The position numbers were made by a program, and so were the translations under genes. DNA of 28,054 nt from positions 1-28,054 of IMG/VR virus record IMGVR_UViG_3300046468_000079. One strand, 5' to 3'. Position 1 is the first letter of the stretch. The number at the start of each line of letters is the position of its first letter. This DNA is from a virus. The notes beneath the pieces were generated by a model. It searched no databases. It worked only from the letters and a program-made list of their open reading frames with translations, and was not told the origin of the DNA. Below are positions 23,332 to 27,511 of this stretch, piece by piece.

Positions 23332-23747
23332 TTCTCTACACCTAATCTTTCAAAGATATTTTCTTTTTTATCTTTAAAAACATTACCAGACTTTGATTCA
23401 TCACTATATTCTGAATGTGTGTAATCAGCACTATCATCAAAGTCACCTGTTTCTGTATTAATGGTAAGTGTACCATTGACAGAATACTCACCTGCAAATG
23501 AATACCATTGATTTAATCTACCTTCATCAGCATAAACTAATGCTTCAAAGTTGTCGTCATCAAAGTCTTCATCTTCATCAAGATCTAAAGTTTTAGCCCA
23601 ATCTACTGTAACAGATTTATCATCTGCATAAAATACTGGTCTATCAAATGATCCTTCATCATTACCACCAGAATATTCTATTTCTACTTTAGTAATACCT
23701 TGTGTATGTAATGCTCTTAGTACGTCTTCAATTGTCTTGTCCGACAT
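23328..23747 (-). CDS. Acidic DUF6878-like protein
   Basis: 139 residues, very acidic (LDEDEDFDDDNFEALV and TGDFDDSADYTHSEYSDESK). The N-terminal pattern VLRALHTQGITKVEIEYSGG followed by NDEGSF resembles DUF6878-type proteins carried by alphaproteobacterial phages and mobile elements. It overlaps the DUF6915-like gene by 20 nt; the two families are often neighbours as I remember them. Function unknown; the acidity could suit DNA mimicry, which is speculation. Confidence 0.6.
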   Translation of the reverse strand: MSDKTIEDVLRALHTQGITKVEIEYSGGNDEGSFDRPVFYADDKSVTVDWAKTLDLDEDEDFDDDNFEALVYADEGRLNQWYSFAGEYSVNGTLTINTETGDFDDSADYTHSEYSDESKSGNVFKDKKENIFERLGVEK

Positions 23748-24072
23748 TTCTATAACCTTTCATTGTCCATTTGGTTGGCTTGATTAAAATTGCCCAATCG
23801 TAAAAACTTGGGATCCAACCCATGTCTTCAACGATATGTCTTTCTGCAATTAATCTGACAGGAACCATTTTACCATCAGAATTTTTTATTGATGTGCCAA
23901 ACTTTTGTTCGGCAGCAAAACAACCTTCAGCGTGATGTCGCAAAGCTCTATGACTCCAGTGTGCAATAATCTTTTTTGATTCGTCAAACCAGTCATGAAT
24001 AGGTTGGTAGTCTTCTGGTTTACCACCCCATTTTTTAACTGATGATACCGAATGATAATAACAATTAGCCAT
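23728..24072 (-). CDS. DUF6915-like protein
   Basis: 114 residues from the ATG at 24072, which has AAGGAG 4 nt upstream (the frame is open to 24123). The sequence is strongly patterned: NCYYHSVSSVKKWGGKPEDY, HDWFDESKKIIAHWSHRALR, HHAEGCFAAEQKFG, PVRLIAERHIVEDMGWIPSF, DWAILIKP. The AHWSHRALRHHAEG segment with its His residues is the mark of DUF6915, seen in phages and mobile elements. The conserved His could bind metal; no activity is known to me. It overlaps the gene upstream by 8 nt. Confidence 0.75.
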   Translation of the reverse strand: MANCYYHSVSSVKKWGGKPEDYQPIHDWFDESKKIIAHWSHRALRHHAEGCFAAEQKFGTSIKNSDGKMVPVRLIAERHIVEDMGWIPSFYDWAILIKPTKWTMKGYRNVGQDN

Positions 24073-24400
24073 TGATCTCCTTAAGTTTGAATTTTTGTTT
24101 TTTAACAATAGCAACAGTTCCAACTAAATTGTCGCCAGGCAAACAAGCTCTTTTAGTTCTTTGTTGCCAAGCATACCAAGCTTTAGTTGCTCTTTTGTTT
24201 GGGTAGTTTAAGTTATTAAACTTACCTTCTTCGTCTATATGCATTTCAAATGTACCTAATTCTTCGGTATAACCTTTTGTAATTTCAATTAATTCACACC
24301 CAATAAGTTTATACAAATCATCAAATGTAGGTTTATTTTTAAACACATGAATGTCTTCGTTGTCATTATCTTTCCATAATATTACATTATACATTGTCAT
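24065..24400 (-). CDS. DUF3846-like protein
   Basis: 111 residues: a beta start (MYNVILWKDNDNEDIHVFKN), then LYKLIGCELIEITKGYTEEL, FEMHIDEEGKFNNLNYPNKR, and LPGDNLVGTVAIVKK near the end. The order G-x-E-I..., DEEGKF..L..N..A and D...G...V matches the DUF3846 pattern of small phage proteins. A Trp/Arg-rich insert (KAWYAWQQRTKRA) sits before the last block. Function unknown. Confidence 0.6.
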   Translation of the reverse strand: MTMYNVILWKDNDNEDIHVFKNKPTFDDLYKLIGCELIEITKGYTEELGTFEMHIDEEGKFNNLNYPNKRATKAWYAWQQRTKRACLPGDNLVGTVAIVKKQKFKLKEING

Positions 24401-26470: not shown

Positions 26471-26630
26471 ATCTAACTCCTTTAGTTATATTATTTATTT
26501 CGCTATCTATTTCACTAACTTTATCATAGTCAGCTTTAACTATAGCTTCTTCTTTTAACATTGATAACTCAACAACTCTTTTTCTATCGTGTTCATCTGT
26601 TATCAACTCATAGTATTTAACGTACTCCAT
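26460..26630 (-). CDS. Small acidic helical protein (56 aa)
   Basis: It reads MEYVKYYELITDEHDRKRVV and ends NNITKGVRYDG, one continuous charged helix in prediction. AAAGG lies 7 nt before the ATG, and the stop falls 11 nt inside the next gene. It is the first leftward gene after the divergent structured gap, hence among the earliest transcribed if the promoter lies there. No known family. Confidence 0.6.
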   Translation of the reverse strand: MEYVKYYELITDEHDRKRVVELSMLKEEAIVKADYDKVSEIDSEINNITKGVRYDG

Positions 26631-26670
26631 TGTAACCTTTCTGTTATCGTTTACTTTATAACCGACATGG

Positions 26671-27044
26671 CATAACGCATGTGGTTAAGGTGTGCAGTCA
26701 TCATGAGGCAAAGCTTAATGATACAGTGCGACACAACGCACCCGAAGGGGAATCACCTTTAGGTGAGGCGTTGATGTCCCTTGCACTGTTCATTAAGGCA
26801 AACTCATGATACAAGCACATTAATCCACGTGTGTGGGGGGGACCCATAGCAATAGTGAGCAACAGCGAACGGTTTCTTTAGAAAATTGCGTATGGGGTTG
26901 TAAGCGTTGCCTTTGGCAACTCTATCAGAGCAATCCAGAGGATTGATCAATGCGACCAGGATCGTTACCCTTTAGGGACAAGACCGAAGGGCTTGGGTGC
27001 TTTAGCACTAGAGCCTGTAAGTCGCCATACAAGATATAGTTATG
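26671..27044. ncRNA. Large multi-branched structured RNA candidate in the divergent gap
   Basis: No gene fits 26631-27136. Instead nested complementary segments fill it. A closing stem CATAAC/GTTATG (26671-76, 27039-44) encloses two domains. Domain A (26678-26831) stacks CATGTGG/CCACGTG, GTGC/GCAC, TCATGAG/CTCATGA, CTTAATGA/TCATTAAG, ACAGTGC/GCACTGT, GACA/TGTC and CAACGC/GCGTTG. It ends in a three-way junction with CCC-GAA-GGG and TCACC-TTTA-GGTGA hairpins. Domain B (26890-27030) is closed by GTATGG/CCATAC and holds GTTGCC/GGCAAC, CAATCC/GGATTG, a CCC/GGG mini-stem and GGCT..GTGC/GCAC..AGCC. Four hairpins share a C-TTTA-G loop, including TTTC/GAAA (26873-26884). Composition is richer in GC than the genome. 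The strand is undetermined; the same DNA could hold a packaging site. It does not match tmRNA, RNase P or tRNA as I know them. Confidence 0.7.
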
Positions 27045-27080
27045 TGAGTTTCCAATACCACTAAAGTCCTGTTATTTCTC

Positions 27081-27117
27081 TTGACACAATGAAATTAAAT
27101 ATCTACGTACCTATAAG
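27081..27117 (+). promoter_or_regulatory. Possible promoter for terS, weak
   Basis: A perfect TTGACA box at 27081-27086 lies 51 nt before the terS start, but no good -10 box is at 16-18 nt; the best TATAAG (27112-27117) is 25 nt away. The box is suggestive only. It lies just outside the structured region. Confidence 0.25.
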
Positions 27118-27136
27118 GGTAGAATAAATAAGTGTT

Positions 27137-27511
27137 ATGAAAGACGATCTTACAGATAAACAACGAGCCTTAGTAGATACAATCGTAGCTACTGGGTGTA
27201 GTATAACAGAAGCTGCTAAAACAGCAGGATATTCAACGAATGTTAGTAAAGATTCAGCGAGAGTAAGTGCTTCTCGCACACTACGTTTACCAAAGGTACA
27301 ACAGTATATGCAACAACGTGTGGCACAAACTCTTGGACTTGGGGCAGTAAGTGCGAGTAAAAGACTTATCGAGCTATCCACAGGAGCAAGGAGTGAATAC
27401 GTTCAACTAGAAGCTAGTAGAGATATTCTCGATAGAGTAGGGTTGAGAGCACCAGATAAGGTATCTCACAACATACAGGGGGATATTAAGATTAATATTG
27501 ATTTAACGTGA
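27137..27511 (+). CDS. Terminase small subunit
   Basis: 124 residues with the usual plan: LTDKQRALVDTIVATGCSIT, EAAKTAGYS (helix-turn-helix for recognising packaging DNA), SARVSASRTLRLPKVQQYMQ, then a helical oligomerisation part (LGLGAVSASKRLIELSTGAR, LEASRDILDRVGLRAPDKV) and a short acidic/Ile-rich tail (GDIKINIDLT) for contact with the large subunit. The tail pattern and helices are typical of the TerS family. It would start packaging, probably at a site nearby. The missing large subunit should follow to the right of the window. Confidence 0.88.
   Translation: MKDDLTDKQRALVDTIVATGCSITEAAKTAGYSTNVSKDSARVSASRTLRLPKVQQYMQQRVAQTLGLGAVSASKRLIELSTGARSEYVQLEASRDILDRVGLRAPDKVSHNIQGDIKINIDLT

Follow-up and report, generated by a model that had tools for sequence, protein, structure and literature searches.

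A modular folded element upstream of terS in a marine SAR11-type tailed phage, a candidate single-strand initiation site

Layout, folding and relatives of the element

What occupies the gap between the early genes and the packaging genes of a marine SAR11-type tailed phage, where no gene fits between the start of the leftward gene at 26630 and terS at 27137? In the window, that is the whole stretch of 28,054 nucleotides analysed here (IMG/VR record IMGVR_UViG_3300046468_000079, positions 1 to 28,054), a preliminary description had already recognised this gap as gene-free and had proposed that it is filled by a multi-domain structured RNA or by structured packaging DNA. The pairings on which that proposal rested, namely the closing stem, arm A and the hairpins, were all recovered on re-reading (Table 1), with 8 Watson-Crick (WC) and 2 G-T pairs in the closing stem, as were the four occurrences of C-TTTA-G (26757, 26876, 26970 and 27000) and the repeats GGCAAA (26707 and 26797) and TGTAAG (26899 and 27016).

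Table 1. Features of the element and of its borders, in window coordinates
Feature	Position	Strand	Remarks
First gene of the leftward early operon, 56 aa	26463..26630	-	Kept at the same place in relatives
Closing stem around arm A, ACGCATGTGG/CCACGTGTGT	26675-26684 (left half), 26825-26834 (right half)	+	Read directly
Module 1, arm A	26690..26819 (pairing re-read as 26691-26819)	+	Long stem, internal loops, terminal three-way junction
Hairpins of the arm A three-way junction	26741-26749 and 26753-26766	+	
Module 2, core, CCCATA-GCAAT / ATTGC-G-TATGGG	26843..26896 (54-nt hairpin)	+	37 versions, same closing stem
Inner hairpins of module 2	26855-26870 and 26873-26884	+	
Hairpin GTTGCC-TTT-GGCAAC	26906..26920	+	Read directly
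Hairpin GAGCAATCC-AGA-GGATTGATC	26928..26948	+	Read directly; optional among relatives
Module 3, closed, multi-hairpin	26952..27025	+	Stems GCGAC/GTCGC (closing) and CAGG/CCTG
Hairpins of module 3: CCC-TTTA-GGG, CAAG-..-CTTG, GTGC-TTTA-GCAC			Unpaired ATCGTTA and TAGAG
Conserved right flank (AGATATAGTnnTGTGAGTTT...CACTAAAG)	27028..27075	.	Alignment of relatives
terS, small terminase subunit	27137..27511	+	PHROG 51, E 5e-14; right border of the element

The complementarity had been judged to be far beyond chance, and folding against shuffled controls bears this out on each strand (z = -3.9 for the + strand and -4.6 for the - strand with RNA energies). With DNA energies, 63 out of 63 distinct regions upstream of terS were more stable than the mean of their controls, which consisted of four shuffles of each region's own sequence (mean folding energy -79.7 vs. 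-49.9 kcal/mol), and the + strand was the better folder of the two in 52 of these 63 regions. The structured element is not due to chance.

Relatives were collected by a TerS scan, which gave 80 loci, and by a core-motif scan, which gave further ones. The motif CGTGTGTG...GGGRCCCATAG is present in 111 loci, once in each, and TerS was detected in 108 of them, always directly downstream of the motif at a distance of 186-570 nt; of the three others, two lie on contigs that stop within 231 nt. The nearest cultured phage, and the sole cultured relative found, is pelagiphage EXVC031P Hodr (TerS 58% identical), whose gap at the same place is also strongly folded. Among relatives the arms are swapped, so to speak, for unrelated ones with the same kind of branched hairpin fold: a replacement arm B stands instead of arm A in 14 other versions, the hairpin at 26928-26948 is missing in three relatives (L003, L005 and L011), and module 3 is missing in many phages of the clade, which have other modules. 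Judged from such sequence comparisons, the element is modular. The core hairpin itself measures 38 to 195 nt in relatives and enlarges by the insertion of whole hairpins, and tandem G-A/A-G steps (GTGAGC..GCGAAC) are recurrent in both the core and module 3. More distant terS relatives (L057-L068) differ in the folded gap upstream of terS, where a conserved AGCCCAGAcCGAAGCCCnTAGGG..GAGACCTTGGCTCGACTTTAGCGAGGGCTGG domain may be another type of module.

Regarding conservation of the fold, arm A was compared across 35 versions, with 97.6% of cells being WC and 2 G-T among 664. Module 3 is closed and comprises three to five hairpins; a covariance model built from 20 copies, the window copy included, scores that copy at 67 bits (E 4e-15); two diverged phage copies from outside the model building (L066 and L070) reach 65 and 68 bits with a G-C pair of the second stem swapped for T-A. 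RNAalifold, applied to seven pelagiphage copies of module 3, did not recover the fold, and explicit structure counts were therefore used. In 113 aligned copies, 97.9% of the cells are paired and both partners have changed in 9 of the 12 pairs; covariation reaches a score of 0.242 vs. 0.065 +/- 0.005 in shuffles, with 0 out of 500 as high, a result that is to be taken as supportive and not as a p-value because the alignment was fitted to the model and its rows are related. The multi-domain structure announced by the preliminary description is thus real, with clear covariation.

As for the surroundings of the folded part, the conserved right flank is possibly a leftward promoter or operator. A consensus scan found no sigma-70 (-35/-10) boxes within 26631-27136. 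A set of phage-polymerase promoters was also considered and dropped, because the right-flank motif RTTGTGAGTWT is repeated in the window only at chance level. Within 27028-27136, conserved AGATATAGTnnTGTGAGTTT and TTGACA...TACGTACCTATAAGGGTAGAAT flank the element ahead of terS; in L049 the counterpart of the latter is palindromic (TACCCTTAcgaacagTTAGGGGTA) and might serve the HTH repressors of the early operon as an operator.

Nature of the folded strand

Covariation and folding energy alone may mislabel folded DNA as RNA, and it is the wobble frequency and the type of loop that discriminate between the two. The paired cells were counted by class. Module 3 has 1,248 WC, 21 G-T and 9 A-C among 1,296 cells in 113 copies, its third stem 769 WC, 12 G-T and 4 A-C in 163 copies, and the phage arms together with the core 2,159 WC, 42 G-T and 17 A-C. 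The share of wobble pairs is thus 1.5-1.9%, against 9.5% G-U in the control of 51 tRNAs from the retrieved loci, i.e. about five times rarer on the + strand and even rarer on the - strand.

The loops GNA, GNNA, GNAB and TTTA make very stable DNA hairpins. In the phage regions, GNA triloops number 38 on the + strand vs. 8 on the - strand, compared with 8 vs. 16 in the rest of the window, and TTTA loops 17 vs. 3, compared with 1 vs. 4. In module 3, 78 GNA triloops are found on the + strand and 11 on the - strand (p 1e-13, assuming independent hairpins, which is not strictly so). With pairs that are nearly pure WC and DNA-type loops that favour one strand, the most economical interpretation is a + strand acting as folded ssDNA; both the DNA nature of the element and the strand are well supported.

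That the gap would instead encode a structured RNA, be it a non-coding RNA or a long leader, on either strand, appears unlikely. Such a reading would suit the RNA folding, which is far better than in shuffled sequence, the covariation, which alone cannot separate RNA from DNA, and the position, as the element would lie in the path of a leftward leader for the early operon. Against it stand the scarcity of wobble pairs on the + strand and still more on the - strand, the rarity of GNRA loops and the fact that module 3 of phage Pf1 shares part of its sequence with the last stretch of a coding gene. Neither the window nor 19 homologue-bearing loci gave a match in Rfam at gathering level, one weaker match (E 2.6) being due to chance, and membership of an Rfam family was rejected at gathering and E-value thresholds alike; no tRNA or tmRNA was detected, in line with the preliminary description, in which no match to tmRNA could be made. 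The element is probably not an RNA, and this part of the preliminary description is not supported in view of the wobble share, the one-strand DNA-type loops and the occurrence of module 3 in other replicons.

Module 3 beyond the phage clade

Direct comparison gave no link to other elements: blastn returned no match, either for the whole window element against phages or for its left part (26670-26960) when plasmids were searched, and modules 1 and 2 were not found outside this phage clade. The link emerged only via pattern scans with AGGATCGTTACCC(n)GGG from the centre of the right-hand domain; this pattern is found in 80 copies in this clade and in full copies in filamentous phage contigs. Module 3 is present in Pf1, other Pseudomonas inoviruses and one Synechococcus inovirus, in 24 genome loci of inovirus type, in 37 plasmids, and in 117 stretches among 84,980 species genomes, mostly of alpha-, beta- and gammaproteobacteria. 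Such sharing with filamentous phages and with the anti-restriction regions of conjugative elements is unexpected for a dsDNA phage.

In inoviruses, the copies are on the viral strand wherever this was checked (16 out of 16 for the Zot-type cluster and 16 out of 16 for the adsorption-type), at about 80-440 nt upstream of a gene of ssDNA-binding-protein type, where one was recognised, and the genes around module 3 lie on the motif strand. The neighbours in plasmids and integrated elements lie to the left and on the opposite strand, namely ArdC (12/12), ParB (20/20), the DUF2493 type (6/6) and ParA (10/11), with ArdA and others also among the nearest left genes; the gene calls of the genome loci are mechanical ORFs, Pfam-checked in part. 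The motif strand thus serves these neighbours as template. Nine loci have 2-3 copies of module 3, all on one strand and about 0.7 to 4 kb apart, and the window has no second copy.

Two other tailed-phage contigs carry module 3. One is a temperate phage (L274:6779-9691, minus) with three same-strand copies 1.3-1.5 kb apart, which lie among rightward genes having the motif strand as template; its genes include an integrase, an Erf ssDNA-annealing protein and a methyltransferase. The other is podophage-like (L286:8172-8259, minus), with a T7-type head-tail adaptor and RusA, and has one module 3 beside runs of CTTGCTTGC repeats. In the literature, the letters of module 3 gave only primer-type chance matches, and the literature covered on Pf phages and inoviruses, to which most subscription papers do not belong, mentions no hairpin origin.

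Candidate role and comparison with known systems

The element as a whole is probably a multi-module single-strand initiation site of the ssi/Frpo-like kind on the + strand. It is so read because the elements that share module 3 handle ssDNA, and because of the template-strand orientation, the one-strand copies and the leftward early operon. Following this context, the hairpin modules would fold when the + strand becomes single; the folded strand would be recognised by host proteins, presumably primase, primosome or RNA polymerase, which would start an RNA complementary to the + strand, leftward into the minus-strand early operon. This RNA could act as a primer for making the missing strand and may double as the first early transcript, as at the Frpo/ssi sites of conjugative plasmids. 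Modules 1 and 2 would do the same job by extrapolation from module 3, and leftward initiation would probably benefit the 56-aa gene adjoining the element.

What makes a single-stranded phase of the + strand plausible is the set of products of the early operon, to the left of the element on the minus strand: an SSB (Pfam E 2e-32), a RecE-like exonuclease and a protein of exonuclease/annealing type. No polymerase, primase, helicase or Rep was recognised among the early genes tested. The lack of a recognised Rep, primase or helicase counts against the initiation reading, as do the absence of module 3 from many phages of the clade, the confinement of modules 1 and 2 to that clade, and the lack of detectable likeness of module 3 to known ssi/Frpo sequences and of sigma-70 boxes in the element. 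Another early gene (23728-24123, minus) gave a strong match to DUF6915 (E 2e-43).

A narrower role, in which the folded + strand would serve only as a promoter for early genes before the second strand is made, along Frpo logic and with no part in replication, seems rather unlikely: the copies of plasmids, integrated elements and pelagiphages do precede leading or early genes that are templated by the motif strand, but in inoviruses a leftward transcript would be antisense, since the genes around module 3 are there on the motif strand, and the element has no canonical -35/-10 boxes. Recognition by the terminase, as a cos or pac site of structured DNA, would suit an element that directly adjoins terS wherever terS was detected, the usual place of cos. 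This packaging alternative of the preliminary description, whose claim of structure stands, is nonetheless weakened because plasmids, integrated elements and filamentous phages, which all lack terminase, have module 3 too, and the bias of the loops to one strand would not be expected for a dsDNA target; we regard it as improbable. The arms swapped between related phages could also recall a small mobile or recombination element, REP-like or attC-like, that landed at this gap, all the more as attC sites too act as folded single strands; since each phage has a single copy, always at this place of its contig, and no neighbouring recombinase was seen in the phage, this has very little probability.

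Beyond the initiation site itself, a wider proposition is that dsDNA tailed phages of SAR11 go through a phase in which the + strand is single, and possess undescribed ssDNA initiation sites for early transcription and second-strand synthesis, common to filamentous phages and to conjugative elements of Proteobacteria, "undescribed" meaning absent from Rfam, from the E. coli collection and from the literature searched. This remains speculative and is put forward tentatively. If the initiation-site reading is right, an undescribed and widespread single-strand start signal of Proteobacteria would join filamentous phages, conjugative elements and tailed phages, and a single-stranded stage would be suggested for some dsDNA phages. 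One 80-nt motif would then make testable how Pf1-like phages start their complementary strand, of which no description was found in the literature searched, and likewise early anti-restriction gene expression in alphaproteobacterial conjugation.

Among known systems, the closest in behaviour would be the Frpo/ssi sites of conjugative plasmids (Masai and Arai 1997, cited in PMC11541004 and PMC9849209). Frpo-type ssDNA promoters sit in leading regions, where ArdC/ArdA-, ParB- and ParA-like genes are typical (PMC11541004, PMC9849209). Both they and the present element are hairpin DNA, in several same-strand copies, upstream of leading-region genes templated by that strand, whereas the element shows no detectable sequence similarity to them and no -35/-10 boxes (which only the Frpo kind requires), is multi-hairpin with conserved ATCGTTA and TAGAG, and is common to inoviruses and tailed phages. 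Conserved hairpins with one functional DNA strand are indeed found here, and the plasmid and integrated-element copies of module 3 precede leading-region genes, on the strand that these use as template. E. coli ssi/Frpo sites were rejected as homologues, with no match of module 3 to all complete E. coli genomes and plasmids, which should include the classical F-type plasmids.

The complementary-strand origins of ssDNA phages (the M13 minus origin, G4) are alike in having several hairpins of the viral strand near an intergenic gap; that of G4 differs in having no shared sequence and was rejected as a homologue. The placement typical of such origins in inoviruses, on the viral strand at or close to a gap beside the gene of the ssDNA-binding protein, is found for module 3 of Pf1 and other inoviruses, the copies to which this comparison applies. 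The GOLLD and ROOL RNAs are likewise large, ornate, phage-linked and modular, but these are RNAs in Rfam, from which the element and its homologues are absent, and the element has few wobble pairs; cos/pac sites are comparable by the position next to terS and differ in that module 3 is also present in elements without terminase. A GOLLD/ROOL-like RNA and a cos/pac site are both less likely readings. By analogy, and not by assignment to either class, the element may act like the Frpo/ssi sites and the complementary-strand origins of inoviruses.
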